Source: Tannerella forsythia (GTDB lineage Bacteria > Bacteroidota > Bacteroidia > Bacteroidales > Tannerellaceae). Taken from it: a stretch of 57,315 nt of DNA. The stretch is from contig NZ_RQYN01000015.1 in the NCBI RefSeq assembly GCF_003860135.1, forward strand, positions 1 to 57,315, given 5' to 3'. The notes below the pieces were generated by a model. That model was not told the origin of the DNA. It searched no databases and worked only from the letters and a program-made list of their open reading frames with translations. Shown here piece after piece: positions 15,568 through 44,308 of the stretch. Both the position numbers and the translations under genes were made by a program. How positions within the stretch are numbered: the first letter of the stretch is position 1; each line of letters starts with the position of its first letter.

Positions 15568-15917
15568 AGGCTTTCTCCCGTACGACAGGAAAGGAGCATA
15601 AGCCCTACGCGAATCGTTCGTTGCAACGGAAGAGGATAATATACCGTACGGGAATCGCCCGCTGCGACGGGAAGTTATCATAGACCTTACGAAGATGTTC
15701 TGCCGCGATGGGAAAAGATCATAGGTTTTACGGGAAGCACCCGCCATGCCGGGAAAAGATAATAGATGGTACGGGAATCGCCCGTTACGGCGGGAAGTCA
15801 TCGTAGATTCTACGGACATCTCCCGGCGAATCGGAACGTCTTCGCGCATGGTATGATCATGCCCGGCTGATAGGAAAGTATTCCTCATCCGTCCGCGAAA
15901 AGATAGGGTAATGGTAT
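15568..15917 (-). repeat. 41-bp tandem array, about 8.5 units, each with a CCCG/CGGG inverted repeat
   Basis: Seven 41-bp units follow each other exactly (15568, 15609, 15650, 15691, 15732, 15773, 15814), with an eighth degenerate unit at 15855 and a partial ninth. A typical unit reads GGGAATCGCCCG, then CGGGAAGTCATC, then TAGATTCTAC. In most units CCCG and CGGG are set about 6 nt apart and could pair. The array ends about 50 nt before the start codon of the DUF6261-like gene. A minus-strand frame (16185-15502) runs open through it, with a 41-residue periodicity equal to three units. Confidence 0.85.
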
Positions 15918-16171
15918 GAAAAGGCCAAGCGAGCATACCGGCCATGCGCCGGATGCTGCGAAAAACTATGAAAATGTCGTCAAGAAAAAGAGAATAGCAA
16001 AGGGGTGAATCTACATTCGTCTGATTATGTGATAAATACCCCCCCCCGTTAGTTTTTATTAACAGACAAGCGAAAGGGTATTTCCGTACATGGAAAACAG
16101 ATTTCCACGCTGCCGGCCAGCACAAATTGAACGTATTAAAATTCATTTCCCTTTTTAGTGTGTTGAGGCGG

Positions 16172-16179
16172 CAAAGATA
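16172..16179 (-). promoter_or_regulatory. candidate -7 element upstream of the 41-bp array
   Basis: TATCTTTG on the minus strand is a perfect -7 match, with a TTTA near the expected upstream position. If used, the transcript would carry the entire 41-bp array as a leader of about 650 nt before the gene at 14775-15515. Confidence 0.5.
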
Positions 16180-16299
16180 ATGCAATCCTTTCGATAAAGG
16201 ATAAGATTATTCTATGTTATATAACACTTTTTAGAGAGAAAACGAGAAAAGTTGTAAAAAAACATGACGTGTATCATCGGTGGCAGGGGAGGGAGCGAA

Positions 16300-16479
16300 C
16301 TATGGCTCTTTCTTGCGGTTTTTATAAAGAGGGACAAAGACGATAATACCCGAAGCGATAATGGCAAAAATCGTCATAAAATCGATTGCCTTAGCCGATG
16401 TCAGCAGGATGTATACCAAAAAGCCCCAGAGAAGGATGATGCAGACGGCTTGCGTGTTCGTGATTTTGCGACGTGCCAT
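16300..16479 (-). CDS. 59-aa membrane microprotein, last gene of the cytochrome operon
   Basis: The frame starts ATG at 16479 (MARRKITNTQ) and stops TAG at 16300. It has two hydrophobic helices (about residues 12-27 and 34-51) separated by a short polar stretch, and a basic tail YKNRKKEP. It begins 16 nt after the stop of the LuxR-type gene, so it is very likely cotranscribed. The hydrophobic pattern and operon position argue for a real small inner-membrane protein. I do not recognise the family. Confidence 0.65.
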   Translation of the reverse strand: MARRKITNTQAVCIILLWGFLVYILLTSAKAIDFMTIFAIIASGIIVFVPLYKNRKKEP

Positions 16480-16495
16480 GTGAGAATACGATGAA

Positions 16496-17374
16496 TTATT
16501 TAATTTCGGTTATGATTTTATGGGTGATGGCATAGAACGTAAGCCCCGGAATCGTTTTGATGCCGAGTTTGGCCGTGATGTTCTTGCGGTGTGTCAGGAT
16601 GGTATTGAGGCTGACGAAGAGCCGCGCGGCAATCTCTTTGTTCGTGTACCCGCTGACAATGAGCTTGAGTACTTCTTTTTCGCGGTTCGAGAGTTCGCTG
16701 TTATCGTCGACCATCGGGAGGAGGATCCGGCTCCGGATGCGGTTGTGCTGCCGGATGTCACGTCCCAGCGCATCGATGGTGAACAGAACGGCGTAACCAA
16801 GGTTTTGGTCGTACGCTCCCGTCAGATGCTTAATCATGATGTTCCGCATATCGTCCATCATGGCTTCGATGGCTTCGTCCGTTTCGCGCGATGTCCGGGC
16901 ACGCATGCTTCTCCTGTTTTGCTCTTTTTCGCTGAGCGCAAGGAGTTGGGGAAACCATTCCTTCTCGTCCGTCTGAATGCGTCCGCACAATTTTTCTTTG
17001 AACGAGGCGAAGATATTGCCCAGCAGTTGCAACGAAGTATTGCTTGCGCCCGACGTATGAATAAAAATCTGCAGGTGTCGGTCGATGTTGGGCAGCTGAT
17101 ATTGCAGGTAATACCGGTTCGTTTGCTTCAGATAATCGATGATCTGGCTGAGGTGAAAGCTTTGCAGCTTTTTCTCCGGAAAATAATCTTCGTTGATAAA
17201 CGTGTTGACGATGGTGAGGAAAAAGTCCGTATGGATATCGTTTGCTTCACAAAGCGCCATGACCGTTTCATCGCCTACCCCAAGCCGTATGCCGAAGCGG
17301 TTGATAACCGGAATGAGCGAGAGGTGCTCGCTCACCACCTCGCTCATTCTCATATTTGCATAAACCAACGGCAT
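16496..17374 (-). CDS. LuxR-type transcriptional regulator with ScdA/RIC-like N-terminal region
   Basis: The 292-aa protein ends in a LuxR/GerE helix-turn-helix (about residues 229-285: SNREKEVLKLIVSGYTNKEI, then VSLNTILTHRKNI). The N-terminus (MSEVVSEHLSLIPVINRFGI, about residues 10-60) resembles the ScdA_N domain of iron-centre repair proteins. The helical middle resembles their hemerythrin part but lacks its usual His pair (TNR where THH is common). It may sense redox, iron or nitrosative state indirectly. It sits in the operon between the TIM-barrel gene (29 nt) and a microprotein gene (16 nt). An ATG at 17353 or 17347 could also be the start. Confidence 0.8.
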   Translation of the reverse strand: MPLVYANMRMSEVVSEHLSLIPVINRFGIRLGVGDETVMALCEANDIHTDFFLTIVNTFINEDYFPEKKLQSFHLSQIIDYLKQTNRYYLQYQLPNIDRHLQIFIHTSGASNTSLQLLGNIFASFKEKLCGRIQTDEKEWFPQLLALSEKEQNRRSMRARTSRETDEAIEAMMDDMRNIMIKHLTGAYDQNLGYAVLFTIDALGRDIRQHNRIRSRILLPMVDDNSELSNREKEVLKLIVSGYTNKEIAARLFVSLNTILTHRKNITAKLGIKTIPGLTFYAITHKIITEIK

Positions 17375-17403
17375 CCGTCTTCGCTATACATTATTTATAA
17401 TGA

Positions 17404-18342
17404 TTACGCTTCGTCCCATTGCTTGCGAAGCAATTCGACGGCTGCCGTAGCCGTAGCTACGCGGTCGTCGTTCTGACAGCCGCATTCAAAGCTCACGTAT
17501 TGATCGTAGCCGAGCATCTTGAGGGCGCGGAAACCGTCGACGTAGCGGTCTGCCTCTCCGTCTTCGCCCGGCATCAGGCGACGCTTGCGACTGGCGATAT
17601 GTACGTGCTGAAGCAACGACCCGGCCGAAAGGAAAGCGCCCATATCGGAGGTCTCCTCCCACGTCATGTGCCAGAAGTCGCCCATGCAACGCACGCCCGG
17701 GTTGTCGATGTCGCGACAGATCGATGCCGCGTCGGCTACCTGACGGAGGTAGAACGCTTCCTTCCGATTGAGCGGCTCGAAGATCACCGTCGTCCGGTGT
17801 TCGGCGGCAAACGTGCCGAGCTCGTCGAACCACCGGCAAAGAAAATCGCGCGTCTCCTGCGTATGCGGCATGGCCGGCTGTTGCGCGTTGAATGCCGGCA
17901 CGATGATGACTCCGGTCGAGCCCAGTTCGCCCGCCGCGGCGATAATCTCGCGCATCGTGTCACGGCACAGGTTACGCACGGCTTCTTCTTCCGAAAGCAT
18001 AAACCCTTCGAATCCCGCGCATATCGCGCTGATTTTGATATTCCGTCCTTCGAGCGCTTTCTTCAACTCGTCCTTCCGCGCGGCCAACCCTTTGCCGCTC
18101 ACTTCGAGACCGGTCACACCGAGCTTTTCCATTACGTCGAGCTTGGCCGTCAGCTCAAGATCGCCCAGCGTCCACTCCTGAAACGAGAGGTTCAGCTTCA
18201 CGTCTTTCTTCGTATCGCCTTCGTCCTTGCAGCATGATTTCGTCTCCGCGCCTGTCGTCGCGCCTCCGGAGCAGGCGGCCATCGTTGCCAACGCCGCACT
18301 GCCCAAAGAGGCTTTCAGAAAATTTCGTCTGTCGATGCGCAT
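17404..18342 (-). CDS. Tat-exported TIM-barrel sugar isomerase/epimerase-like protein
   Basis: The 312-aa protein begins with a Tat-type signal, MRIDRRNFLKASLGSAA, followed by a possible lipobox (AAC). The rest is a xylose-isomerase-like TIM barrel: VTGLEVSGKGLAARKDELKK, a metal-ligand region FEPLNRKEAFYLRQVADA, and MGDFWHMTWEE. Such proteins act on sugars or keto-sugars with a divalent metal, here probably in the periplasm. The ATG at 18342 overlaps the preceding stop by one base (TGATG), so translation is coupled to the Gfo/Idh/MocA gene. A GTG one codon upstream is possible but weaker. Confidence 0.88.
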   Translation of the reverse strand: MRIDRRNFLKASLGSAALATMAACSGGATTGAETKSCCKDEGDTKKDVKLNLSFQEWTLGDLELTAKLDVMEKLGVTGLEVSGKGLAARKDELKKALEGRNIKISAICAGFEGFMLSEEEAVRNLCRDTMREIIAAAGELGSTGVIIVPAFNAQQPAMPHTQETRDFLCRWFDELGTFAAEHRTTVIFEPLNRKEAFYLRQVADAASICRDIDNPGVRCMGDFWHMTWEETSDMGAFLSAGSLLQHVHIASRKRRLMPGEDGEADRYVDGFRALKMLGYDQYVSFECGCQNDDRVATATAAVELLRKQWDEA

Positions 18343-19739
18343 CACTTTTTCTCTAACGGTTTACCGGGTACGGGAACCACGAACGGTTTCATATCCATTT
18401 TACCCAGATTCAGGTCAGCCGGCATATAGTCGAGCGCGGAAGCCGTCATGGTTTCCCATGTCGTTTCTTCGCCCGTATAAGCCGATTCGCGTCCCATGAT
18501 GGCGGCCATGTTCGATACGGCTGTCTCCGAAGCCTGATCGATCGATTTGCCGGCGCGGATCGTATTGATCCAGTTCACATGCTCGAGCGTATAGGGGTCA
18601 TTCTGTTTGAACGATGCCTTCTCGGCGTCAAAGTCATATTTCCAGATCACATTTCCGGCGAGGTCTTTGATCTCCATGTTCGCACTGTTCCACGAACCTT
18701 TTGTTCCCTGAATAAATTCGCTGACGTTGTTGGCGCAGCCGTCTATCTGGCGACACATACTGTGCAGATGGATACCGTTCTCCATCGTGAAGTCGATGCT
18801 GAAATTATCGTACTGGTCGCCCGTGATCCGGCGCTGACGCGAGCCGAAGCCTACGGCTTTCACCGGTTTCAGCCCCGAAAACCATGTAAACACGTCGATG
18901 TTATGTACGTGCTGCTCGACGATATGATCGCCGGAGAGCCATTTCCAGTTCACCCAGTCGCGGATCATCCATTCGCAGTCGCTCCATCCGGCCTGACGTT
19001 CGCGGTACCACAACATATTTTGATTCCAATAAACCGTTCCGCCCGTGATTTCGCCGATCGCACCGTTCATGATCTGCTGGTACGATGCGATATAACTCCG
19101 CTGATGGTGGCGTTGCGTACCGGTGATTACGCACAGGTTCTTGGCCTGTGCCTGCTTGGCCGTGGCCATGATGGTGCGGTAGCCTACCGCGTCGACACAG
19201 ATCGGTTTTTCGAGGAAGCAATGTTTGTTCTTCTCTACCGCATACTGGAATTGGGCCGGACGGAAATTCGGCGGCGTAGTAATGATCACCACGTCGACGT
19301 CGCTGTCGATAACCTGCTTGTACGCATCCAATCCGACAAAGCGCTTATCGGCAGGGATGTCGATATTCTTCTCGTCTTTCAGTTTCTGGGCCAGACTGTC
19401 CACCCGGTCCTGAAACGTGTCGGCCAACGCCACAATCGTGACACCGTTCGCTGCCGCGAGGAAATTCATCGCTGCGCCGCTTCCGCGTCCTCCGCAACCG
19501 ATGATACCGGCCTTCAATTCTTTACCGTCGGCCGCCATATCGGGCAACTCGGGTACATAATACGTTCCCGGTTCTTTCAGCGGCTTGTTGGCTGCATTTG
19601 CGTTCTCGTTACTGCTTGCGCCTCCTCCACACGAGGAAAGCAGGGTGGCAGTTCCCCCCGTACCGACCATTCCGGCAGCCCCGGCAAGGGCCGAACTTTT
19701 GAGGAATGATCTTCTACTGATACTGCTTTTTTTTGTCAT
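18342..19739 (-). CDS. Tat-exported Gfo/Idh/MocA-family oxidoreductase
   Basis: The 465-aa protein has a twin-arginine signal (SRRSFLKSSALAGAAG) and then a possible lipobox (LSSC). A Rossmann fold follows with AGIIGCGGRGSGAAMNFL, the EKP motif CFLEKPICVDAVGYR and the C-terminal substrate domain (GDHIVEQHVHNIDVFTWF). Family members oxidise or reduce sugar hydroxyls with a tightly bound NAD(P), and Tat-exported versions with retained cofactor occur in Bacteroidetes sugar 3-oxidation clusters. It is coupled to the TIM-barrel gene and follows the cytochrome gene by 39 nt. The substrate is unknown. Confidence 0.92.
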   Translation of the reverse strand: MTKKSSISRRSFLKSSALAGAAGMVGTGGTATLLSSCGGGASSNENANAANKPLKEPGTYYVPELPDMAADGKELKAGIIGCGGRGSGAAMNFLAAANGVTIVALADTFQDRVDSLAQKLKDEKNIDIPADKRFVGLDAYKQVIDSDVDVVIITTPPNFRPAQFQYAVEKNKHCFLEKPICVDAVGYRTIMATAKQAQAKNLCVITGTQRHHQRSYIASYQQIMNGAIGEITGGTVYWNQNMLWYRERQAGWSDCEWMIRDWVNWKWLSGDHIVEQHVHNIDVFTWFSGLKPVKAVGFGSRQRRITGDQYDNFSIDFTMENGIHLHSMCRQIDGCANNVSEFIQGTKGSWNSANMEIKDLAGNVIWKYDFDAEKASFKQNDPYTLEHVNWINTIRAGKSIDQASETAVSNMAAIMGRESAYTGEETTWETMTASALDYMPADLNLGKMDMKPFVVPVPGKPLEKK

Positions 19740-19778
19740 GACAAATTTGAGTTAAATGTACTGTTTCTTAGTTTCTGA

Positions 19779-21338
19779 TTATTTCGCTTTCAGCGACGAG
19801 TCCGGCTCGCAAACCACACGGAAGCCGATGCCCCGGATGTCGGAATACCACCAGATGCTCTTGGGCTGTTGCGGATCCGTTTTCAGCCAATCGTCGTGAT
19901 GCGTATGGCTGCGGGCGGCACACCGCACATCAGCGGCATCGCTCGTATAGTTGCCGCCGCGTACCACCCATTCTTCACCTTCGGTCACCAACGGATCGGT
20001 AACGGTCGAGCCTCCTTTGGCATACGCCTGCGGATCGTATTTGTCGGCGCAATATTCCATCACGTTGCCGAGCATATTTTTCAGCCCGAACGGGTTCGCC
20101 TTGACTTTATCGGGTTCTTGTGTCTTGTTCTTCGCGTTTTTGCCGTAGACGATAAATTCGCCGATCGGCTCGGTCTTCGCGCTAATAAACTTGCGGATGA
20201 AACCTTCGTCGGAATAATCTTTCGGTCGTCCCGTGAAGAAGTAAGGAGTTACCGTCCCTCCGCGAGCCGCGTATTCCCATTCGGCCTCGGTCGGCAGACG
20301 ATATTTCTTGCCGGTCTTGAGAGAGAGCCACTGGCAGAACGTCTCGGCAGCGTAGTGCGTCATGGTAATGGCCGGACGCGTACCTCCTCCCCATCCCTGA
20401 TCGGGAAATCCGAACGGCGGCGTAGGACCCGACACGCCGTCCACGTCGATGTCCGCGCGGGTATTGTTGGCATAAATCGTTTCGGGCGGGGTACGTCCTT
20501 CGCTGAGCGTCGCCGCGTAGAATGCCCAATATTGATCCCAGGTCACTTCCACCTCGGCCATAAAGAACGGACTGACTGTCACGCTTCGCACCGGCGACTC
20601 ATCCTCCCGGCGGAAATCTTCTTTATCGGGACTGCCCATCTTAAAGGTGCCGCCGGGTATCGCAATCATCTTGAAGGATACCGGAGTACCGGGAATCTGT
20701 TCCGTGAAATCGGTGAAAGACGTCACGACCGTTGCCGAGTCGAACGGCGGGCCCGAAGCCGTGGCGGAGGCTCCCGGAATACCGGTCATCTGTCCGTGCT
20801 TGTAATTCGGATTGTAATGTCCGGCATCGAGGTGACAACTGATGCATTGCAAATTCAGTTTTTTCTCATTTTCTTCGTAGTAAAGGTGCGCGGTGATGCC
20901 CGCATCCGTAATACCTGCGGGAAACAGATTCTTATGACATTCTTTGCACGACTCGTTCGGGATATATTTTACGGCATGTTCGAGTTGCGACTTCATTTCC
21001 CAATCGAACGAGTCTTTTGTCAAATAACCCCACAAATCGCGTACGCCAAGCTGTATCTTGGCCGAATAATGGTTCCATGTCTGATTCTTCGGAGGCAGAT
21101 GGCAGTCGACACAATGCACGGTGACACCGCTCCCGTTATTTACGTGCGACGATAACTTCCATGTCTCTTCCGCATGCGGATGGACGTGGCAGCTCATGCA
21201 GGCCTCGTCCGTCGAATAGTAGACGGATACTTCATAGAGCGACATAAAAAAGGCCATGCCGACGATAAAGCCGAACAGAAACAGGGGCCATTTCTTTTTC
21301 TTTTTTTCGTCTCTTCTCGATCGGTAGCTCGTTGTCAT
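19779..21338 (-). CDS. NapC/NirT-like tetraheme cytochrome c fused to a SUMF1 domain
   Basis: The 519-aa protein has a basic N-terminus and one membrane anchor (about residues 17-39), then four heme sites: CMSCH (47-51), CVDCH (76-80), CKECH (131-135) and CISCH (165-169). These match NapC/NirT/NrfH quinol dehydrogenases. From about residue 221 it becomes a SUMF1/FGE-sulfatase fold (AIPGGTFKMGSPDKE, RLPTEAEWEYAARGG, WVVRGGNYTSDAADVRCAAR). The paired active-site cysteines of true formylglycine-generating enzyme are absent from the RGGNYTSD segment, so the domain is probably structural or binds something else. The gene starts 2 nt after a 49-aa membrane protein. Confidence 0.92.
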   Translation of the reverse strand: MTTSYRSRRDEKKKKKWPLFLFGFIVGMAFFMSLYEVSVYYSTDEACMSCHVHPHAEETWKLSSHVNNGSGVTVHCVDCHLPPKNQTWNHYSAKIQLGVRDLWGYLTKDSFDWEMKSQLEHAVKYIPNESCKECHKNLFPAGITDAGITAHLYYEENEKKLNLQCISCHLDAGHYNPNYKHGQMTGIPGASATASGPPFDSATVVTSFTDFTEQIPGTPVSFKMIAIPGGTFKMGSPDKEDFRREDESPVRSVTVSPFFMAEVEVTWDQYWAFYAATLSEGRTPPETIYANNTRADIDVDGVSGPTPPFGFPDQGWGGGTRPAITMTHYAAETFCQWLSLKTGKKYRLPTEAEWEYAARGGTVTPYFFTGRPKDYSDEGFIRKFISAKTEPIGEFIVYGKNAKNKTQEPDKVKANPFGLKNMLGNVMEYCADKYDPQAYAKGGSTVTDPLVTEGEEWVVRGGNYTSDAADVRCAARSHTHHDDWLKTDPQQPKSIWWYSDIRGIGFRVVCEPDSSLKAK

Positions 21339-21340
21339 AA

Positions 21341-21490
21341 TTAGTCTATTCGTTGTTTTTTGATTTCGTTATAGTCGATCCATACCTGCTGCTTGTCGTT
21401 CTTCGTTATGGCTATACTTCCCACGAATAAGATCCATCTCGCCATCCACCATAAGAACGGCAGAACGATGAGCGACTCCAATACATTCAT
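21341..21490 (-). CDS. 49-aa single-pass membrane microprotein, first gene of the cytochrome operon
   Basis: The frame begins ATG at 21490 (MNVLESLIVLPFLWWMARWI), has one hydrophobic helix over about residues 5-27, and ends KKQRID TAA. A GGAAGGTGG site lies just upstream of the ATG, and the stop is 2 nt before the cytochrome-SUMF1 start. Such tight spacing to a NapC-type gene suggests a small subunit or assembly helper for the cytochrome. The function is not known. Confidence 0.7.
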   Translation of the reverse strand: MNVLESLIVLPFLWWMARWILFVGSIAITKNDKQQVWIDYNEIKKQRID

Positions 21491-21696
21491 TAGTGCCACC
21501 TTCCATCATTCCCACACGTAGCGTTCTGTTTCTCATGAAAGAATATGTCTTTCGTTAGAAAAAATACTGATTCGGCCGATAAAAGTAGTACTTTTTCAAC
21601 AAATCGCCAAATTCAAACCGGTTCGTTTCATTCATCATTCGTCCGGAAGATCATTTACGGAGTTTCGTATAGGATCCGTATTCCGAAAAGAAGCAT

Positions 21697-21704
21697 TACT
21701 TTTG
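21697..21704 (+). promoter_or_regulatory. candidate -7 element for the CAP lipoprotein gene
   Basis: TACTTTTG matches TAnnTTTG and lies 26 nt before the start codon at 21731. There is no TTTG at the expected upstream distance. The 240-bp gap 21491-21730 is divergent between two operons; I found no promoter match for the minus-strand operon. Confidence 0.5.
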
Positions 21705-21730
21705 CAATTCACTTCTGATGGAAAATAAAG

Positions 21731-22201
21731 ATGAAAAAAATAATCATACTCCTTTGCGGATGGATTATGCTGCTCTCGGGGTGTGCGAAAGAAAACCTTG
21801 TAGATGATGGTGGAGACCTTCCATCTGTTTCACTTACGGAATACGAGAAAGAAGTCGTAGCACTTGTCAATAAAGAGCGTTTAGCCGCCGGACTGAATGC
21901 CTTGCAAATCGATCCGTCGTTGATGGCTTCGTGCGATGTGCGCGCCAAAGAAATCGTGTTCAAATTTTCTCATACCCGTCCCGACGGCAGCTCGTGTTTT
22001 ACCGTTATCACGACGAAATTCGCATCTGCGGGTGAGAACATAGCCAAAGGATATGCGTCGCCTAAAAATGTGATGAAGGGCTGGATGAATTCACAGGGAC
22101 ACAAAGAAAACATCATGAACGGAGAATTCACGCATATCGGAGTCGGTTGCCATCGCGACAACGGAACCTTCTATTGGGCGCAATTGTTTATCGAGAAGTA
22201 A
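21731..22201 (+). CDS. CAP/SCP-domain lipoprotein
   Basis: The 156-aa protein has a lipoprotein signal ending LLSGC (Cys18), and then a compact bacterial CAP domain: VALVNKERLAAGLNALQ, KEIVFKFSHTRPDG, SAGENIAKGYASPKNVM, GWMNSQGHKENIMNGEFTHI and a final YWAQLF. The conserved His and Glu residues of the CAP cavity are present. Members are exported; their roles are mostly unclear. The next gene starts 36 nt downstream and has a nearly identical signal peptide. Confidence 0.92.
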   Translation: MKKIIILLCGWIMLLSGCAKENLVDDGGDLPSVSLTEYEKEVVALVNKERLAAGLNALQIDPSLMASCDVRAKEIVFKFSHTRPDGSSCFTVITTKFASAGENIAKGYASPKNVMKGWMNSQGHKENIMNGEFTHIGVGCHRDNGTFYWAQLFIEK

Positions 22202-22237
22202 AAAGAGAAAGAAATAGAAATGATATTATAAAACCTG

Positions 22238-23132: not shown

Positions 23133-23167
23133 TCTCCCTTTAGAAAAAATGGTATAAAACAGGTGTT

Positions 23168-26342: not shown

Positions 26343-27983
26343 TTATTTGCAGGCGCAAGAAGGTTTCAATTGCTTGAAGAAATCATTGCCTTTATTATCG
26401 ACGAGAATAAACGCCGGGAAATCTTCGACTTCGATTCTCCAGATCGCTTCCATGCCGAGTTCGGGATATTCGAGACATTCGACCTTCTTGATGCTTTCGA
26501 GCGCGAGCACGGCAGCCGGTCCGCCGATACTGCCAAGGTAGAAGCCCCCGTATTTCTTGCAGGCGTCGGTCACCTGCTGACTGCGGTTTCCTTTGGCGAT
26601 CATCACCATGCTTCCGCCGTGAGACTGGAAAAGATCGACGTACGAGTCCATACGTCCGGCCGTCGTCGGGCCGAACGAACCGGACGACATGCCCTTGGGC
26701 GTCTTCGCCGGTCCGGCGTAGTAGATCGGATGATCTTTGATATACTGCGGCAGCCCTTCTCCCTTGTCGATACGTTCTTTGAGCTTGGCGTGCGCGATAT
26801 CTCGCCCGACAATGATGGTGCCGGAAAGCGACAGGCGTGTCGAAACGGGGTACTTATCGAGCTGCTCGAGGATTTCAGCCATCGGACGGTTCAGGTCGAT
26901 TTTCACCGCGTTGCCTTCGCCGGCCTGACGCAGCGATTCGGGGATGAGGCGTCCGGGATTATCGTCGAGTTTCTCGATCCAGATACCGTCTTTATTGATC
27001 TTGGCCTTGATGTTGCGGTCGGCCGAGCACGAAACGCCCATTCCCACAGGGCACGACGCGCCGTGACGCGGCAAACGGATGATGCGAATATCGTGAGCGA
27101 AATATTTACCGCCGAACTGCGCGCCGAGACCGAATTTGTACGCTTCTTCGAGGACTTTCTTCTCCAGCTCGATATCGCGGAAGGCGCGGCCGCCTTCGTT
27201 GCCCGTTGTCGGGAGATTGTCGTAGTAATGCGTCGAAGCGAGTTTGACGGTCAGAAGGTTCTTCTCGGCCGATGTTCCGCCGATGACGAACGCGATATGG
27301 TAAGGCGGACAGGCAGCCGTACCGAGCGTCTTCATCTTTTCGACGAGGAAAGGTACGAGCGTGTCCGGATTCAGCAAGGCTTTCGTTTCCTGATACAGGT
27401 AGGTCTTATTCGCCGAGCCTCCTCCTTTGGTGACGCAGAGGAAATGATATTCCATCCCTTCGGTCGCTTCGATATCGATTTGCGCGGGCAGGTTGCATTT
27501 CGTATTCACCTCGTCGTACATGGTCAGGGGAGCATTCTGCGAATAGCGGAGGTTTTCTTCCGTATACGTTTTGAAGACGCCTTTCGAGAGCGCTTCTTCG
27601 TCGCAAAAGCCCGTCCATACCTGTTGCCCTTTTTCGCCGTGGATGATGGCTGTTCCCGTATCCTGACAAAGCGGGAGTTGTCCTTTACACGACACTTCGG
27701 CGTTGCGCAGGAAGGTCAGGGCAACGAACTTGTCGTTATCGCTCGCTTCGGGATCGGTTAAGATTTTCGCGACCTGCTCGTTGTGTTCGCGCCGTAACAG
27801 AAACGATACGTCACGAAAAGCCTGATTGGCCAAAAGGGTCAATGCTTCGGGCTCGATCTTGAGGATCGGATGTCCTTCAAACTCGCTGACCGAAACATGG
27901 TCTTTCGTCAGCAGATAATACTCCGTCGTGTCTTCTCCCAGCGGGAACGGCGGCTGATACTTGAATTCAGGTGTTGTTGCCAT
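26343..27983 (-). CDS. fumB: class I fumarate hydratase, [4Fe-4S] type
   Basis: The 546-aa protein is a full-length single-chain class I fumarase. Iron-sulfur and active-site segments are visible: [50 protein letters not shown]. The C-terminal domain holds [19 protein letters not shown] and [20 protein letters not shown]. It interconverts fumarate and malate in the cytosol; in anaerobic Bacteroidales it runs in the reductive direction toward fumarate for respiration. fumA and fumB cannot be told apart from sequence, so the symbol is nominal. A 42-bp palindromic array lies upstream of its promoter. Confidence 0.95.
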
Positions 27984-28120: not shown

Positions 28121-28335
28121 TTTAGGGGCGAAAAACCTCGTTGTTGTACAACAACAGGGTCAAACACGCTGTTTAACTGCCATTGTTGCACAACAACGGG
28201 TCAAAAACTGCTGTTTAGGGGTCATTGTTGTACAACAACGAGGGTAAAACAGCTGTTTAGGGGTCATTGTTGTGCAACAACGGGGCAAAAACAGCTGTTT
28301 GAATAGCATTGTTGTACAACAACGGGGTAGAATCG
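28121..28335. repeat. 42-bp tandem array with two palindromes per unit
   Basis: Four complete 42-bp units (28139, 28181, 28223, 28265) are flanked by partial units. Each has TTGTTGTACAACAA, a perfect 14-bp palindrome (central variants TTGTTGCACAACAA and TTGTTGTGCAACAA). In most units AAACAGCTGTTT, a 12-bp palindrome, follows about 10 bp later. The unit ends in TTTAGGGGTC. The array lies between the response-regulator stop and the fumarase promoter. The minus strand reads as 14-residue repeats (CCTTMTPKQLFYPR) because 42 is divisible by three. Confidence 0.9.
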
Positions 28336-28362: not shown

Positions 28363-29052
28363 TCAGTACGTCAATTTGAGTCCGACGCCTCGCACGGTTA
28401 CGATGGAAACGCGTTCGTCTCCGACGAAATAGTTGCGCAATCGTGTAACGAATACGTCCAGACTGCGCGAAGTGAAATAATCGGCTTCGGGCCAGAATCG
28501 TTCGAGAATGGCTTCGCGTCTGACGGTTTCGTTCCGGTGCTCGCATAAGAGTTGCAGGATCTGTGTTTCGCGCGGGCTGAGCGAAATCGTTTTTCCGTCC
28601 TTGTCATGCAGTTCCGATTTCGACGCGTCGAACCGGAAGCTGCCCAGCGTAAACTGTGATGTGGTATCTTTGGTCCGTTCGCTGTTCCGTGTCCTGAGCA
28701 TCGCCCGGATGTGCGCGTCAAGTTCTTCCGGGATGTACGGTTTCTTGATGTAATTATTGGCGCCGACCTGATAGCCGTATGTCAAATCTTTGGGCGAAAG
28801 GAGTCCCGAAGCGAAAATAATCGGTGTCCGGCCGTCTGTCTGGCGAATTTTCGAGACCATTTCGAAGCCGTTCATCACGGGCATTTCGATATCGGAGACG
28901 ATGATATCCGGCGTCTGTTCTTTCCATTGCCGCAAGCCCTCTTGACCGTTCACGGCCGTGAGGACTTCGTAGCCGCCAATCATATCTTCCAATCCGCTGC
29001 GCACCATGTAGAGCAGTTGGGCATCGTCTTCGATCAGTAGGAGTTTAATCAT
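28363..29052 (-). CDS. OmpR-type response regulator
   Basis: The 229-aa protein has an N-terminal receiver domain with the acidic pair IEDD (residues 7-10), phospho-acceptor Asp54 (IVSDIEMP) and conserved Lys (YIKKPYIPEEL). A C-terminal winged-helix DNA-binding domain follows (LSPRETQILQLLCEHRNETV, SRSLDVFVTRLRNYF). It overlaps the upstream histidine kinase gene by 4 nt (ATGA), so the two form a coupled two-component system. The layout resembles Bacteroides RprY/RprX, but orthology is not established. Targets are unknown. Confidence 0.94.
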   Translation of the reverse strand: MIKLLLIEDDAQLLYMVRSGLEDMIGGYEVLTAVNGQEGLRQWKEQTPDIIVSDIEMPVMNGFEMVSKIRQTDGRTPIIFASGLLSPKDLTYGYQVGANNYIKKPYIPEELDAHIRAMLRTRNSERTKDTTSQFTLGSFRFDASKSELHDKDGKTISLSPRETQILQLLCEHRNETVRREAILERFWPEADYFTSRSLDVFVTRLRNYFVGDERVSIVTVRGVGLKLTY

Positions 29053-36862: not shown

Positions 36863-36900
36863 CGCAAATAATAATGTAAGCCATTAGCCATTAGAAACGT

Positions 36901-39900
36901 ATGAAGAAAATTGTTATCTTACTGTATTTGATGACAGGATGCTGCCTGATGTATGGTCAGCGTACACATCAATTCGAGTCGTCCGAGCGGTTATTTCACG
37001 AGGGAAAAGAACTGTTTCGTTTGCAGAATTATCCCGGCTGTTTCGATAAATTGACTGCCTATAAAGCAAAATCGACGGATCATGATCGAATTCAGGAAGC
37101 AGACTTTATGTTGACTTGTGTTGCTTTTGAGCAAGGTCATCCGAAGGTCGTGGAAATGCTCGAAAATTATCTGACCACTTATTCGGATACGCGTCATAAA
37201 GACGAAGTATGTTTTATGCTTGGCTCGGCTTACTTCGCACAGGAAAAATATCAGGAGGCCATCAAATGGTTCAGTCAATCGGAAATCGATTATCTGAGCG
37301 AAGAGCAGCAAGAGGCTTACGCGTTCCGTATGGCTTACGCGTTATTGCAGACGAACGACCTGCGCACGGCACGGAACTACTTCGCCCGCATCCAGCAGGT
37401 CGGAAAGACATACAAAGAAGCGGCTTCTTATTATCTGGCTTATATCGATTATGCCACAGGCAACTATGAAAAAGCCTTGACCGGATTTAACCGACTGAAA
37501 AATAATCTGACTTATCGCGAACAGGCTCTTTATTACATTACACAGATTCATTACATCGAGAATCGTTATGACCGGGTCATCGCAGATGGTGAAGAGCTCT
37601 TGCGGGCTTACCCGAATAGCGCGAATAATTCGGAGATATACCGGTTATTGGGAAATGCATACTATCAGAACGGCGAACCATCGAAAGCGATTGACCGGCT
37701 GGAGAAATATGTGGCTCATACGGATTCCGTACTTCGTGGCGACATGTATATTTTAGGAGTCTGCCACTATAATCAAGGCAATTATGATCAGGCTATCGAA
37801 GCATTGACCGAAGCCATCGATGAAGAAGATGCTCTGACACAAAATGCCTACCTCTATTTGGGACAATCTTACCTCAAGACGAATGATAAAAATAACGCGC
37901 GCATGGCTTTTGAGATGGCCACGACATCCGAATTCGACAAACAGGTGCAGGAAACAGCCATGTATAACTATGCGTTGCTGATTCATGAGACGTCATTTTC
38001 GGGGTTTGGAGAGTCGGTAACTATTTTCGAAGACTTTTTAAATCGCTTTCCGGATTCGAAATACACGGATAAAGTCAATGACTATTTGAGCGAAGTCTAT
38101 CTTACCACAAAGAATTATGAGGCGGCTTTGGCATCGATCGATAAAATCCGGCAACCGGGTGCTAAGATTCAAGCCGCGCGTCAAAACGTATTATTCCGAC
38201 TGGGTACGCAAGCATTTACGAATCAACAGCCCGAAAAGGCAATCGACTATTTGAACCGTGCCGTTGCCTTAGGCAATTACGATAAGGAAGCCTACAGCGA
38301 CGCCTACTTTTGGCGCGGAGAGGCTTATTACCGTCAGCATAATTTCAGCGAGGCCGCTTCCGATTTCCATGCCTTCGCAGCCAATACGACTGACCGTGCC
38401 TCCGATGCTTATGCGCTTGCACATTATAATTTGGGATATTGCTATTTCAAGCAGAAGAACTATGAGTCGGCCTTGTCGGCTTTCCGGCAGTATGTCGGTC
38501 TCGAAAAAAACACGTCGGCGGTATCGCTGGCCGACGCGTACAACCGTATCGGTGACTGCTTGTTTCACAGCCGTCAATTCACTTCGGCCGAAGAACAATA
38601 CACACGCGCCGCATCGCTTCAACCTTCGAGTGGAGATTATGCGCTTTATCAGAAAGGATTCCTTCTGGGATTGCAGAAAGACTACAAAGGAAAGATCAAC
38701 CTGATGGACCGTGTGATTCGTGAGTATCCCGAATCGGACTATGTAGACGATGCCTTATATGAAAAAGGGCGATCGTATGTACTGACAGAAAATTACGACT
38801 TGGCGGCCAACGCCTTCAACGAACTGCAGCAACGCTTCCCGCAAAGCAGTCTGGCACGCAAGGCCGGCTTGCAACTCGGCCTTTTGTATTTCAACGACAA
38901 CCAACCCCAGAAAGCGATCGAAGCTTATAAGAAAGTGATCGGCGATTATCCCGGTAGCGAAGAAGCCAAGACCGCCCTACAGGATTTGAAGTCTGTGTAT
39001 GTGGATATGAACGATGTGGCATCGTATGCGAGTTATGTCAACTCGCTTGGCAATACATCGACCCGTTTCGATACGAGCGAGCAGGATTCTTTAACGTATT
39101 TTGCTGCCGAAAAACTCTTTATGCGTGGCGATAATGAGGGAGCCCGCCGGAGTTTGAACAATTATTTGCAACAATTCCCGCGTGGAGCCTTCAGCCCCAA
39201 TGCGAATTATTATCTGGCTCAAATTGCTTTCAGCCAGAAAAATTACGACGAAGCGAGAACAAGATATACGGCTGTTGCCGAGAGTGGAAATACGAAGTTT
39301 CTTGAAGAGTCGGTGGCGCGTAAGGCCGAAACGGAATACCTGCAAAAAGATTGCACTGAGGCGATCAAGAGCTTCAAATGGCTGGCCGCCATCGCAGAAA
39401 CGACTCATAACCGTGAGGCGGCCAGACTGGGCATCATGCGCTGTGCGCGGCAGACAGGACAACAGGCCGAAGCTTTGCTGGCAGCCGAAGAACTGCTGAA
39501 AAGCACGAAGCTCAAACCCGAAGTAGAGGCCGAAGCGCGTTACTTGCGTGCTCAATCGTATCTCAGCTTGGGCGAAGAGAATAAAGCCCGGATCGATCTG
39601 CAAGCATTGAGTAAAGATACGCGTACGGTCTACGGAGCCGAGGCTAAATATTTATTGGCTCAGTCTTATTACGACGGAAACGAGATGGACAAAGCCGAAA
39701 AGGAATTGCTGAACTTCATCGAGAAAGGTACGACACACCGTTATTGGCTTGCACGCGGATTCGTGTTGCTCTCTGACGTATATGTTCGGAAAGGAGATAA
39801 ATTTCAGGCACGTCAATACCTCACCAGTCTGCAAAAGAATTACAAAGGAAATGACGACATCGCCGGAATGATTACCGAGCGGCTTGCCAAACTGAAATAA
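36901..39900 (+). CDS. large exported TPR protein
   Basis: The 999-aa protein has a signal peptide (MKKIVILLYLMTGCCLMYGQ). It is then almost entirely tetratricopeptide repeats of about 34 residues from residue 25 to the C-terminus; clear units include EAYFLRGEAYYRQHNFSEAA-type stretches such as AHYNLGYCYFKQKNYESALS. It is probably a periplasmic or outer-membrane-associated scaffold. The beta-barrel gene 32 nt downstream is a likely partner. This TPR-barrel pairing is seen in other Bacteroidales, though I cannot name its function. Confidence 0.9.
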   Translation: MKKIVILLYLMTGCCLMYGQRTHQFESSERLFHEGKELFRLQNYPGCFDKLTAYKAKSTDHDRIQEADFMLTCVAFEQGHPKVVEMLENYLTTYSDTRHKDEVCFMLGSAYFAQEKYQEAIKWFSQSEIDYLSEEQQEAYAFRMAYALLQTNDLRTARNYFARIQQVGKTYKEAASYYLAYIDYATGNYEKALTGFNRLKNNLTYREQALYYITQIHYIENRYDRVIADGEELLRAYPNSANNSEIYRLLGNAYYQNGEPSKAIDRLEKYVAHTDSVLRGDMYILGVCHYNQGNYDQAIEALTEAIDEEDALTQNAYLYLGQSYLKTNDKNNARMAFEMATTSEFDKQVQETAMYNYALLIHETSFSGFGESVTIFEDFLNRFPDSKYTDKVNDYLSEVYLTTKNYEAALASIDKIRQPGAKIQAARQNVLFRLGTQAFTNQQPEKAIDYLNRAVALGNYDKEAYSDAYFWRGEAYYRQHNFSEAASDFHAFAANTTDRASDAYALAHYNLGYCYFKQKNYESALSAFRQYVGLEKNTSAVSLADAYNRIGDCLFHSRQFTSAEEQYTRAASLQPSSGDYALYQKGFLLGLQKDYKGKINLMDRVIREYPESDYVDDALYEKGRSYVLTENYDLAANAFNELQQRFPQSSLARKAGLQLGLLYFNDNQPQKAIEAYKKVIGDYPGSEEAKTALQDLKSVYVDMNDVASYASYVNSLGNTSTRFDTSEQDSLTYFAAEKLFMRGDNEGARRSLNNYLQQFPRGAFSPNANYYLAQIAFSQKNYDEARTRYTAVAESGNTKFLEESVARKAETEYLQKDCTEAIKSFKWLAAIAETTHNREAARLGIMRCARQTGQQAEALLAAEELLKSTKLKPEVEAEARYLRAQSYLSLGEENKARIDLQALSKDTRTVYGAEAKYLLAQSYYDGNEMDKAEKELLNFIEKGTTHRYWLARGFVLLSDVYVRKGDKFQARQYLTSLQKNYKGNDDIAGMITERLAKLK

Positions 39901-39932
39901 AGGAAAGAGATAGTCGAAATGTCAATAAAAGA

Positions 39933-41738
39933 ATGAAAAAGATGAGAACGAAAAACCGGATACAGATATATATCACCCTTGTTTTATTGGGCAGCGGCCT
40001 TATGCTTCAGGCTCAGGAAAAGGAAACGAAGTTGAACCGTGAAATGACGCTCGAACGCGAATACGACCCGACTGTACAGGATGCCAATAAGGTCAACCGC
40101 CTCCCCGACGTGAAAGATCCGAAAATAACGAAGCATTCCATCGAATACTCACCGTTCACCCTCCCTGTCGATCCGGAAAAAGAGATCGTCGTACTTCCGT
40201 CGGGTAAGATCATGACGGCCATCCCTTACAATAAACGTCGCGGATATCTTCGTCTGGGCACAGGGATGAATATGAATGTGGAAGGAGATTTAGGCTATCA
40301 TATCTTACATAACGAGACGGATTTGTTGAATATCTTCTTCTCTCACCGTTCGACGAATAGCAAGCTCAAGGACTATGACGGAAGCGGCATCAAACAACAA
40401 GCCAAACTCAATGATAACCTCGGCGGCGTACATTTCCATCATCATTTCAACTTCGGGACGTTGCGCCTTGGCGGAAAATACGGTTATACGGCCTTTAATT
40501 ACTACGGCTTCCCGTTAGATTCGCTCTATCGACTCCAACAGACGAACCACATCCTGCTACCGCAAAGTCATTCTGTCGATCGGAACAAGAATCAGGCGAA
40601 TCAAACCATGAACGCGTATGCCGGCATCCGATCGAGGGAAGACGCTTTGCTGGGTTATCTGCTCAACATAGAATATCAACGCTTCGGACAAAAATACGGA
40701 CGTACCGTCGACGTGGATGGCATACGTGAAAATCGATTCACCCTGCAACTGGGCTTTAGCTCACGTTTCAGCCATAGCAACCAGCGGGTAGGTCTTGCCG
40801 GCAAAATGGACTACTTCAAGTATGCGTATCCCTCAAGCAAGACAGGCGGTGATTCGCTCGGTTATCAGAACCATGCTCAAATCACGGTGACGCCTTATTA
40901 CCGTTACGAAGACGCTAACTGGAAATTACAATTAGGAGCTAACGTGATGCTTATCACCGGCGACTCGTCCAAACTTTTCTTATCGCCCAACATCTCGGCC
41001 GAAGGAAAGATTGCGGACAAGACGGTGTGTTATGTACGTGCCGGAGGCGAAATCGGGGTGAATGACGCGCTCTCGATCTCGCGCCTGAACCGTTATACCG
41101 ACCACGCGCTGATGGTGAAACCGTCGCGTACGTGGCTCGATCTGGAGGCGGGAATCCGGACAGGAGTCGTTCCGAATGTATGGATGGAGTTTTTCGGAGG
41201 TTTCAAGATCACGGAGAACGAGGTGTTCTTCGTGCCGGCCAATTATATCGGTGCCAAGCACGATTTTGGGAACTACAGCCTCGCCTATCAGCCGGATGCA
41301 TCGCTGTTCCGCGTCGGTGCGTCGTTTAAATACGCTTATCAGAAATGGTTTGATGCCTCGATCAAAGGCGTATATCATAACTGGTCGTTGCGCGACGGAG
41401 ACGGAAACACATGGCTTTCGGGCAAGGAGAATGGCTACAAAAAGGCTTACGGACGCCCGGAGTTGGAAGTCCATGCCGACCTTGCCATCCGCCCCATCCG
41501 TCCGCTAACGCTGGCTCTCGGATATTATTTAGGAGCCAATCGGTATACGCTGTTCCATGCCCGGGAAATCAAGCTGACGAATATTAACGATCTCAATTTT
41601 ACGGCGACGTACAACCTCAACGATACGTTCGGGGCGTATGTGAAAGTGAACAATATGCTGAACCGGCAACAGGAGTTGTGGTACGGCTACCCGACGCAGC
41701 AGCTTCATGCGCTGGCAGGTGTCAACATCAATTTCTGA
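39933..41738 (+). CDS. outer-membrane beta-barrel protein (TonB-receptor-like, no plug)
   Basis: The 601-aa protein has a signal peptide (ITLVLLGSGLMLQAQ), a conserved charged N-terminal segment (NREMTLEREYDPTVQDANKVN), then alternating barrel strands to the C-terminal ALAGVNINF. It lacks the TonB plug domain, so it is not a complete TonB-dependent receptor. It is cotranscribed with the large TPR protein and probably functions with it in the outer membrane. It ends 1 nt before the convergent TPR gene. Confidence 0.85.
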   Translation: MKKMRTKNRIQIYITLVLLGSGLMLQAQEKETKLNREMTLEREYDPTVQDANKVNRLPDVKDPKITKHSIEYSPFTLPVDPEKEIVVLPSGKIMTAIPYNKRRGYLRLGTGMNMNVEGDLGYHILHNETDLLNIFFSHRSTNSKLKDYDGSGIKQQAKLNDNLGGVHFHHHFNFGTLRLGGKYGYTAFNYYGFPLDSLYRLQQTNHILLPQSHSVDRNKNQANQTMNAYAGIRSREDALLGYLLNIEYQRFGQKYGRTVDVDGIRENRFTLQLGFSSRFSHSNQRVGLAGKMDYFKYAYPSSKTGGDSLGYQNHAQITVTPYYRYEDANWKLQLGANVMLITGDSSKLFLSPNISAEGKIADKTVCYVRAGGEIGVNDALSISRLNRYTDHALMVKPSRTWLDLEAGIRTGVVPNVWMEFFGGFKITENEVFFVPANYIGAKHDFGNYSLAYQPDASLFRVGASFKYAYQKWFDASIKGVYHNWSLRDGDGNTWLSGKENGYKKAYGRPELEVHADLAIRPIRPLTLALGYYLGANRYTLFHAREIKLTNINDLNFTATYNLNDTFGAYVKVNNMLNRQQELWYGYPTQQLHALAGVNINF

Positions 41739-41739
41739 T

Positions 41740-42003
41740 TCACTGATTATACAGATTCTTATCGAAGAAGTCGAGGATTTCGATCTCGCTCTGATAGGCG
41801 CGATGGGCAGGACTGTCAGGGTTCAGCTCCATTGCCGCCAAATAGTTATTTAACGCTTCGCGGCTGTTGCCCTGCTTACGATACGCATTGCCACGCAAAA
41901 AGAAAGCCTCGTCCGACTCGGGATGGTCGGTCAGATAGGCATCGAGCCGGCGGATAGCTTCGGTTGTTTGCCCTTCGTGAATCAGTTGTTTTATCTCGTT
42001 CAT
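41740..42003 (-). CDS. small cytosolic TPR protein, possibly leaderless
   Basis: The 87-aa protein begins MNEIKQLIHEGQTTEAIRRL and holds two TPR units (DEAFFLRGNAYRKQGNSREAL) and a short C-terminal helix. The open frame extends further upstream to 42270, but a perfect -7 element at 42008-42015 lies just before this ATG, so the longer form would begin upstream of the promoter. The promoter-to-ATG distance is only 4 nt, which suggests a leaderless mRNA. The binding partner is unknown. Confidence 0.8.
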   Translation of the reverse strand: MNEIKQLIHEGQTTEAIRRLDAYLTDHPESDEAFFLRGNAYRKQGNSREALNNYLAAMELNPDSPAHRAYQSEIEILDFFDKNLYNQ

Positions 42004-42007
42004 ACGG

Positions 42008-42015
42008 CAAAGATA
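42008..42015 (-). promoter_or_regulatory. -7 element directly abutting the small TPR gene
   Basis: TATCTTTG then CCGT then ATG on the minus strand. With the usual 4-6 nt between the element and +1, transcription would start at or within one or two bases of the ATG. Confidence 0.6.
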
Positions 42016-42080
42016 GGGACTTGTTTGCGAACAACGAGGCTCCCCTGCCGCAAAAATCGTCCGAATCGCAGGTATACAAG

Positions 42081-42114
42081 AACGGCGCTGCCTTTTTAGA
42101 GGAACAGCGCCGTT
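42081..42114 (-). terminator. intrinsic terminator after the SAH hydrolase gene
   Basis: A perfect 10-bp stem AACGGCGCTG/CAGCGCCGTT (42081-42090 with 42105-42114) has a 14-nt loop, 9 nt past the stop codon at 42123. The T-run is short (TTCTTGTAT), so efficiency is uncertain. Confidence 0.7.
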
Positions 42115-42122
42115 CGCGTGTA

Positions 42123-43541
42123 TCAATACCGGTAGATGTCCGACTTGAACGGCCCGTTTACCGGAACGCCGATATAGTCGGCTTGTTTTTGGGTAAGTTT
42201 CGTGAGTTTGACACCGACCCGCTCGAGGTGCAGCCGAGCCACTTCTTCGTCGAGATGCTTCGGCAGACAATAAACGCCTACTTCGTACTTCTTCTGCCAG
42301 AGATCGATCTGCGCCAACGTCTGGTTCGTAAACGAATTGCTCATCACGAACGAGGGATGTCCCGTCGCACAGCCGAGGTTGACGAGGCGACCTTCGGCCA
42401 GCAGGAAGATCGAATGTCCGTCGGGAAACGTATACTTATCGACTTGCGGTTTGATGTTCTGATGCTTGATATTCGGGAACGTCACCAGTTTCTCGACTTG
42501 AATCTCATTGTCGAAGTGTCCGATGTTGCAGACGATTGCCTGATCTTTCATCGCCTTCATGTGATCGATGGTGATGACATCGCAGTTGCCGGTCGTCGTC
42601 ACGAAGATATCGCCTTCTTTTACGCCTTCTTCCATCGTCGTCACTTCAAAACCTTCCATCGAAGCCTGAAGCGCACAGATAGGGTCGATTTCCGTCACGA
42701 TCACGCGGGCGCCGTACGAACGCATCGAATGGGCACAGCCTTTACCCACATCGCCGTAGCCGGCTACGACCACGACCTTACCGGCAATCATCACATCGGT
42801 AGCGCGCTTAATCCCGTCGGCCAACGATTCGCGGCAGCCGTACAGATTGTCGAACTTCGATTTCGTTACCGAATCGTTTACGTTGATGGCAGGCACGAGC
42901 AGTTCGCCGCGCTCCATCATCTGATAAAGACGATGTACACCCGTCGTCGTTTCTTCCGATACGCCTTTCATCTCTTTGAGCATGTTATGCCAGCGTTGCG
43001 GGTCTTCCTTATGGATGCTTTCGAGGAGATTGAGAATCACCTGTTCCTCGTGATTGGCGGCTTTGCGTTTAAGAATCCGGGGATCGTTTTCGGCCGCATA
43101 TCCCTGATGGAAGAGCAGTGAAGCGTCTCCTCCGTCGTCGACGATAAGGTTCGGCCCTTTGCCGTCGGGGAAACGCAGCGCCTGATCGGTACACCACCAG
43201 TATTCTTCAAGCGTTTCGCCTTTCCACGCGAATACAGGCACACCGGCCTTGGCGATAGCTGCCGCCGCATGGTCTTGCGTAGAAAAAATGTTGCAACTTG
43301 CCCAGCGCACGTCGGCGCCCAGGTCTACGAGTGTCTCGATCAGAACGGCTGTCTGAATGGTCATGTGCAGCGATCCGGTGATGCGTGCTCCTTGAAGCGG
43401 TTTCTTATCCGCATACTTTTTGCGCAGCGCCATCAGCCCCGGCATTTCGTGTTCGGCGATTTCGATTTCCTTACGTCCGAAATCTGCCAGTGTAATGTCT
43501 GCCACTTTATAGGGCAGCGTGTTCGTTGTTTCCTTTGCCAT
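42123..43541 (-). CDS. ahcY: adenosylhomocysteinase (S-adenosylhomocysteine hydrolase)
   Basis: The 472-aa protein matches full-length SahH. It shows [20 protein letters not shown], the [21 protein letters not shown] loop, the Rossmann motif [29 protein letters not shown], and the C-terminal [21 protein letters not shown] with DIYRY end. It splits S-adenosylhomocysteine into adenosine and homocysteine in the cytosol, relieving methyltransferase inhibition. The frame is open 49 codons further upstream, but [16 protein letters not shown] (start 43541) is the conserved beginning and lies 26 nt from a -7 element. Confidence 0.97.
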
Positions 43542-43566
43542 AACTTTCTTGTATGATTTTATGGCG

Positions 43567-43574
43567 CAAAGGTA
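43567..43574 (-). promoter_or_regulatory. candidate -7 element for the SAH hydrolase gene
   Basis: TACCTTTG on the minus strand, 25 nt before the ATG. No -33 match. The next 35 bp upstream lead directly into a mosaic element copy. Confidence 0.6.
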
Positions 43575-43605
43575 TGAAAATTTCGGATATAACTTTTCAC
43601 CTCTT

Positions 43606-43954
43606 TTGTCATTCAGAGCGCGAGCGATGAATCTCGCTCTTCTCTTTCCTTTTCCGGGTGAGATTCCTCCCTGCGTTCGGAATGACAAATGAATTGTCGA
43701 TGGTTAATTGTCAGTTGTCAATTGTTATGCCGGGTACATGGTTCGGTGTGTACCGGGCATTCCTTCTTCGCTTCGCTTTTCCCCCCTTCGAAGGGGGGAC
43801 AGGGGGGATGTCCATATCCACGCCATCGCGGGCAAACACTACACAGCAAACAACTCAACAAATAAACATTTCAACACCTCAACGCCGGCAGGGCATACAA
43901 GGGCTGAAAGCCTGAATTAAATTCATTCTTCTTTGTTCTATTGCGGAATTCGGG
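43606..43954 (-). repeat. dispersed mosaic element, copy D, with one intact terminal repeat
   Basis: Its right end (43937-43954) matches the right terminal repeat of the complete element at 8393-8410 in nearly every base. Inside are the shared GAGATTCCTC, GACAAATG, GTACATGGTTCGGTG and CAACAAATAAACATTTCAAC modules. The left end is not well defined. A palindromic 42-bp array begins 13 bp beyond its right end. Confidence 0.75.
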
Positions 43955-43967
43955 CTAAACATGAGTT

Positions 43968-44308
43968 CGGCACTTTGACTATAGTCAATGGTCACTTTTT
44001 TTCTGTTTTCGGCACTTTGACTATTAGTCAATGACCCACTTTTTTTGTTTTCGACACTTTGACCTATAGTCAATGTGTACTTTTTTTTGTTTTCGGCACT
44101 TTGACCATTAGTCAATGACCCACTTTTTTTGTTTTCGACACTTTGACTAATAGTCAATGGACACTTTTTTTTCATTTTCGACACTTTGACCATTAGTCAA
44201 TGGTCACTTTTTTTTGTTTTCGACACTTTGACTTATAGTCAATGGTCACTTTTTTTCTGTTTTCGGCACTTTGACTATTAGTCAATGCCTCGTTCGTTTT
44301 TGTTTTTC
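43968..44308. repeat. 42/43-bp tandem array with a TTGAC/GTCAA dyad in each unit
   Basis: Seven full units start at 43968, 44010, 44052, 44094, 44136, 44179 and 44221, with a partial eighth at 44264. Units are 42 bp, except those at 44136 and 44221, which are 43 bp. Each has CGGCACTTTGACTATAGTCAATG or a variant followed by a T-rich spacer. The dyad is either TTGACTATAGTCAA (perfect 14-bp palindrome) or the 15-bp form TTGAC-N5-GTCAA. The 43-bp units break any 14-residue frame, which argues against coding. It lies between the ispG terminator and an element copy upstream of the SAH hydrolase gene. Confidence 0.9.

Follow-up and report, generated by a model that had tools for sequence, protein, structure and literature searches.

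Tandem repeats of constant size and variable sequence have been described in Bacillus by Subirana and Messeguer, with repeat sizes of 20-21 and 52 nt (PMC8161180); these authors also consider a protein that would polymerise along DNA, and note that 20-21 nt equals two helical turns. Satellite-rich prokaryotes have been tabulated in PMC6749651, where the highest density in Table 1 is 89 per Mb and where the non-coding satellites of Leptospira interrogans have family sizes of 46, 37 and 69 nt. According to PMC8625621, the satellites of B. coagulans are transcribed. The papers cited so far offer no settled reason for the persistence, in some bacteria, of repeats that are constant in length and free in sequence. 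A 2020 satellite paper in J. Bacteriol. reportedly names 22/44 and 52 nt in its abstract, of which 44 is not far from the 41-42 bp found here.

The window analysed here, a stretch of 57,315 nucleotides from Tannerella forsythia (contig C47 of a genome of 3.3 Mb in 226 contigs), contains three tandem arrays that form part of a large intergenic satellite set, in which units keep to a constant length of about 21 bp or a multiple of it, in most cases 41-42 bp, and the sequence is free. Like the Bacillus satellites, these arrays combine one size with many unrelated, species-specific sequences and several families per genome, are non-coding, and show partial conservation and changes of copy number between relatives. 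Unlike them, they have a main size of 41-42 bp (plus 21 and 63), occur in a genus of Bacteroidales, and show an enrichment of dyads and a conservation of dyad arms that we measured for the present arrays and set as a further difference (PMC8161180). With the satellites of L. interrogans (PMC6749651) they share the presence of non-coding families at several loci, although the family sizes differ. The main size and the dyad conservation appear new relative to PMC8161180, PMC6749651 and PMC8625621. In the samples studied, as distinct from whole genomes, we found few repeat sizes, unrelated families of the same size, non-coding location, species-specific sequences and copy-number variation, and we assign the three arrays to the constant-size, variable-sequence kind with a probability of roughly 0.85.

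Three tandem arrays and their surroundings

The gene calls in the window agree with the earlier note, made from the sequence, in placing all three arrays between codirectional minus-strand genes. The features are as follows.

14775..15515, minus strand: DUF6261 protein gene, adjoining array 1
15568..15813, no strand: array 1, six decayed 41-bp units; periodic part 246 bp
26343..27983, minus strand: class I fumarate hydratase gene, 158 bp from array 2
28141..28329, no strand: array 2, TRF 42 bp, 4.5 copies; layout (A-B)4-A
28363..29052, minus strand: OmpR-type response regulator gene, stop 34 bp from array 2
42123..43688, minus strand: adenosylhomocysteinase gene (ahcY), 278 bp from array 3
43966..44308, no strand: array 3, eight copies of TTGAC(4-5)GTCAA with a variable centre, 42-43 bp apart
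44386..44410, minus strand: intrinsic-terminator-like hairpin with T run, directly after ispG, between ispG and array 3
44412..46160, minus strand: ispG gene, stop 125 bp from array 3

The existence of the arrays is well supported, since the self-match at lags of 41, 42 and 42 bp over the spans originally claimed was 0.57, 0.72 and 0.66 for arrays 1, 2 and 3, well over the respective shuffle maxima of 0.35, 0.41 and 0.41 (300 shuffles, any lag from 15 to 100). Array 1 had been given a span of 15568-15917, of which the part up to 15813 is periodic and the remainder is not: the six units match a consensus built from those same six at 66-85%, while the next three 41-bp frames, up to 15917, match at 32-41% and lack periodicity. 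TRF reported from this array only 15710-15796 (41 bp, 2.1 copies). In array 2, five 14-bp palindromes TTGTTG..CAACAA follow each other at 42-bp spacing. Every B segment contains in addition a dyad around AAACAGCTGTTT that is looser than A, and in the consensus the centres of the two dyads are 21 bp apart (counted by eye). Array 3 was delimited by TRF at 43966-44287 (42 bp, 7.6 copies). The palindromes of arrays 2 and 3 keep their arms and vary at the centre. A residual 21-bp period within the units of the three arrays was considered and rejected, the self-match at 20-22 being equal to background, and Rfam gave no match above the gathering score in the window.

Short tracts of 7- and 8-bp repeats are also scattered in the window (379-407, 558-586, 43692-43725, 49701-49744, 54304-54341 and 56135-56342), of the types TCGTAAT, AATTGTC, TAACAAT, AATGACG and GTTGAGTT. 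A few longer arrays outside the window are multiples of 7, for example L041:3351-3587.

Repeat length in the genome, the genus and beyond

The rest of the genome was sampled in 40 stretches (476 kb) picked by contig number without regard to arrays, counting arrays with a TRF score of at least 100 and a period of at least 15. Even without the window, 21 of 24 arrays had a basic period of 21, 41/42, 63 or 125 bp; with the window included (533 kb), 24 of 27 belonged to the 21-bp series. The basic lags of these 27 arrays were 21 (7 arrays), 41 (7), 42 (7), 63 (2), 125 (1) and 16, 23 and 51 bp (1 each). Two of them, L041:3351 and L053:17749 (the latter with TRF periods 28 and 35), are built from 7-bp microsatellites, and leaving both out the series count is 19 of 22. 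The 21-bp class comprises by basic lag 7 of the 27 arrays, one of them a 7-bp microsatellite, and the main class is 41-42 bp. At about 50 arrays per Mb, extrapolation to 3.3 Mb suggests that the genome probably holds well over a hundred.

Within the genus, 400 kb of the complete genome G030 were sampled as well (L168-L187). This sample contained 61 arrays, 36 of them with a basic lag of 41 or 42, that together make up 4.1% of the sequence, and repeats were present in 19 of the 20 samples. Of the arrays that reach 3.5 copies, 39 of 48 had units of 40-43 bp. The density of these 48 arrays in 400 kb exceeds the 89 per Mb that is the maximum in Table 1 of PMC6749651, with the reservation that the detection programs differ. 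The earlier note had proposed one shared period and named a genome-wide peak as its test; in both genome samples (21/24 and 39/48) such a peak is present. The mean period was 41.6 bp in our genome (SD 0.5, 16 arrays) and 41.75 bp in G030 (SD 0.87, 51 arrays), values compatible with four helical turns, which would give about 10.4 bp per turn.

At the same threshold, 10 arrays were found in 458 kb from other members of the genus, a single one (22 bp) in 397 kb from other genera of the family, and two, neither of 41-42 bp, in 251 kb from other families of the order. Lowering the score to 50 gave 15 repeats in the family sample and nine in the order sample, none of the latter at 40-43 bp; since 8 of the 15 in the family sample were of 20-22 bp, a weak 22-bp class is not restricted to the genus. 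A few weak arrays of 22-23 bp were seen in other genera of the family (L258, L260, L261, L262, L266, L269). Array load is also strongly unequal between relatives. G026 showed no array at a score of 80 in six stretches totalling 82 kb (L188, L271-L275), and the arrays therefore seem dispensable in this near relative, at least in the sampled sequence. In draft assemblies arrays are lost where contigs end: of four matches to array 3 in G025, three lie at the start of a contig. The low counts obtained from such genomes may thus have a technical component.

Length is related to copy number. In our genome 24 of 27 arrays with at least 3.5 copies fell in the classes 20-22, 40-43 or 62-64 bp, compared with 7 of 19 with fewer copies (P 3e-4), and in G030 the figures were 45 of 48 and 23 of 40 (P 7e-5). 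Preferred lengths are thus commoner among the longer arrays, and length would therefore matter for amplification or retention.

Several species of the genus have arrays of 23 bp (L153, L155, L157, L158, L284; also L039:5833-5937), which are a second length class and do not correspond to a whole number of helical turns. Two of these arrays, those in L284, carry a significant dyad. Such arrays speak against the proposal that an equal period places the dyads strictly on one face of the helix.

Unit families and changes between relatives

At 70% identity, the 16 units of our genome fall into 16 families and the 51 of G030 into 42, and the mutual dissimilarity that had been claimed for the units of the window arrays extends to the sampled 41-42 bp units of the genome. 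As for a short sequence common to the repeats of a genome, a trait considered for the constant-size kind, the top 6-mer in our genome occurred in 5 of 16 and did not exceed the null (95%, 5), and in G030 CCAAAA occurred in 9 of 42 (null 95%, 6), a weak signal. The unit of array 1 had no other match in the genome at E<=0.001, that of array 2 was found on seven other contigs (C172, C183, C150, C149, C69, C158 and C182) and that of array 3 elsewhere on C36 and C58. Among 41 genomes of the genus, at E<=1e-8, the array-2 unit was present in three (our genome, G025 and, weakly, G026) and the array-3 unit in two (our genome and G025). For these two families the sequence is species-specific, confined to the nearest relatives.

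The same picture came from 30 fumarase loci of the genus, where TRF found the array-2 unit only in our genome and G025, and G026 had a degenerate remnant. With collinear flanks, the number of A elements in array 2 is five in our genome, three in G025 and about two, degenerate, in G026; the first two differ in length by exactly 84 bp, that is, two units. Array 1 is the same array in G025, with no unit gained or lost, and at the locus of array 3 the contig of G025 ends and the context in G026 differs. Variation of copy number between strains, suggested at the outset as a check, is accordingly seen in array 2 and not in array 1. Other members of the genus have arrays near ahcY with different units and on either side of the gene. 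Upstream control of a specific gene, as the placement described in the earlier note might suggest, fits poorly with these data, since array-2 and array-3 units are limited to the nearest relatives and recur at several other loci, and the arrays beside ahcY elsewhere differ in unit.

Most of the printed arrays of families 2 and 3 have the form (A-B)n-A, with the palindrome A at both ends. Five arrays depart from this form: L012 is truncated where its contig ends, L011 and L015 have part of a unit ahead of the first A, L004 carries variant units on its outside, and in L016 one of the spacings is irregular. Regular palindromic elements in n+1 copies, with n segments of equal length between them, recall CRISPR arrays; unlike in CRISPR, the B segments of these two families are copies of each other and there are no unique spacers.

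Dyads and conservation of their arms

A dyad in each unit had been claimed for all three window arrays. Against shuffled units, it is there in array 2 (7-bp stem, P 0.017) and in array 3 (7-bp stem, P 0.013), but not in array 1, where none was significant (P 0.55) and where the six-unit consensus (P 0.71) and that of G025 (P 0.63) gave the same result. Among consensus units, a dyad with P<=0.05 against single-base shuffles was found in 5 of 24 in our genome, 27 of 55 in G030 and 4 of 9 in other members of the genus. Stems of at least 7 bp were present in 25% of 16 units of our genome versus 6% of sampled intergenic 42-mers (Mann-Whitney P 0.012), and in 51% of 51 units of G030 versus 7% (P 1e-10). 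Dyads are therefore enriched in the units of both genomes over shuffles and intergenic background alike, as the earlier note had anticipated.

The arms are also better conserved than the remainder of the unit. Over 39 arrays, chosen for having a stem and hence by complementarity and not by conservation, the mismatch to the consensus was 0.070 in the arms and 0.118 in the remainder, being lower in the arms in 28 arrays and higher in 11 (P 0.006). Bending by A-tracts was considered as a common feature and is not general: A4/T4 tracts occur in 63% of G030 units versus 35% of a GC-matched intergenic background, and in our genome in 62% versus 56%. Matches to the HU family numbered 11 in our genome (G000), 5 in the array-rich G030, 5 in the array-poor G026 and 19 in G027, and no correlation of their number with array load was seen among the first three.

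Genomic placement

Placement was scored with a rough custom gene caller. Eighteen arrays of our genome had two flanking genes, 15 of them codirectional, three convergent and none divergent, against 27 divergent among the 104 gaps of at least 200 bp; the others overlapped a called gene (7) or lay at an edge (2). One of those counted as overlapping, L018:17800, lies between divergent genes and would itself be divergent if the gene call is wrong. In G030 the 46 arrays with two flanking genes were 36 codirectional, three convergent and seven divergent, and the remaining ones overlapped a gene (10) or lay at an edge (5). All arrays other than these 7 of 27 and 10 of 61 were clear of called genes. 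Repeats within coding sequence can be ruled out for most arrays, given the 41-bp units and the few gene overlaps; with at least 3.5 copies, the unit is not a multiple of three in 11 of 27 arrays of our genome and in 26 of 48 of G030.

Codirectional arrays tended to be closer to the stop codon of the upstream gene (36 of 53, P 0.013; 13 of 16 in our genome and 23 of 37 in G030), which may reflect a function on the 3' side or merely an avoidance of promoters. A role as terminators is ruled out by the lack of intrinsic terminators (hairpin plus T run) in the gene sense in all 53 codirectional arrays; five had one in antisense.

What sets the common period

As the cause of the common period we favour the binding of a dimeric protein to double-stranded DNA, with a length-bound process of generation as a close rival. 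According to the latter, replication, recombination or hairpin-assisted slippage with an inherent step near 21/42 bp would set the length, and the arrays would be neutral or selfish. The occurrence of one length in unrelated sequences, the restriction of families to the nearest relatives, the recurrence of the same unit at different loci and the finding of repeats in 19 of 20 G030 samples would all be expected from such a process, which we regard as a real possibility. Repeats with fewer than 3.5 copies, however, span broader lengths than the long arrays, so that the first duplication appears less bound to length, and the better conservation of the dyad arms also speaks against it. The reading of each array as a row of operators controlling the downstream gene, in line with the position upstream of a promoter or leader given in the earlier note, draws on the codirectional genes around all three window arrays and on palindromes that keep their arms in arrays 2 and 3. 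It is nevertheless very improbable given that the array-2 unit is found by TRF at only two of 30 fumarase loci of the genus (with a remnant at a third) and lies on seven other contigs of our genome, that the array-3 unit is limited to two of 41 genomes, and that codirectional arrays lean towards the stop of the upstream gene.

That stop-proximal position, together with the absence of divergent gaps among the 18 arrays of our genome, would fit arrays acting as RNA, where transcripts (3' UTR or small RNA) would carry hairpins in series, and the transcription of B. coagulans satellites reported in PMC8625621 points the same way. Stem mismatches read on the gene strand were more often G-T than A-C (41 vs 15 cells, P 0.0007 by cells, although cells within an array are non-independent), an excess that by hand tally per array is 10 to 4 with 3 ties, not significant, and that could be caused by strand-biased mutation. 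Yet the sense strand was no more stable than the antisense (23 of 51 arrays, Wilcoxon P 0.98; control gaps 55 of 120), which gives no support to the regular RNA hairpins offered in the earlier note as a second option. Compensatory changes were few (8 of 282 changed cells), seven G030 arrays and perhaps L018:17800 are in divergent gaps, no array corresponds to a sense terminator, and a terminator-like hairpin after ispG precedes array 3. Taken together, we consider a role as RNA unlikely.

For the binding of a dimeric protein, to which we would tentatively give a little under even odds, the constraint would act on DNA in its double-stranded form. One or more dimeric DNA-binding proteins would occupy a single dyad in every two or four turns of the helix; arrays with such spacing would be kept and extended and other tandem duplications lost; and the role would be genome-wide, in nucleoid structure or as a binding sink, rather than in the control of neighbouring genes. 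The classes of period, the dependence of copy number on length, the enrichment of dyads and the conservation of their arms, the lack of a strand difference and the two-unit step in array 2 are consistent with this. On the other side, most units of our genome (19 of 24) lack a significant dyad, arrays of 23 bp in the genus and of 22 bp in other genera do not make whole helical turns, a single protein is not expected to bind dozens of unrelated sequences, among which shared 6-mers are weak, HU-family counts do not track array load, and the 82 kb sampled from G026 are free of arrays. The original interpretation is supported in the common period with unrelated sequences (in our sample and in G030) and in the enriched dyads, whose arms are also better conserved; a dyad in each of the three arrays is not supported, and the evidence speaks against gene-specific control, regular RNA hairpins and strict phasing.

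A further and rather speculative extension, which we hold to be unlikely, is that a candidate DNA-binding system maintains hundreds of intergenic arrays in the genus, with nothing in common but dyads and a unit length of two, four or six turns. If the classes of 20-21 and 52 nt known from the literature are added, this would amount to a chromatin-like, sequence-lax code of whole turns (2, 4, 5, 6), of which G030 would be the extreme. TRF counts of about 50 arrays per Mb in our genome and 150 in G030, the scarcity of arrays in a near relative and a measurable conservation of the dyads make the genus a system in which protein-binding, RNA and mutational explanations can be separated.

Arrays of 42 and 48 bp were also seen at L097:3805-4919, on a contig filed as a Chitinispirillales MAG, where they may reflect either shared biology or a misbinned contig.
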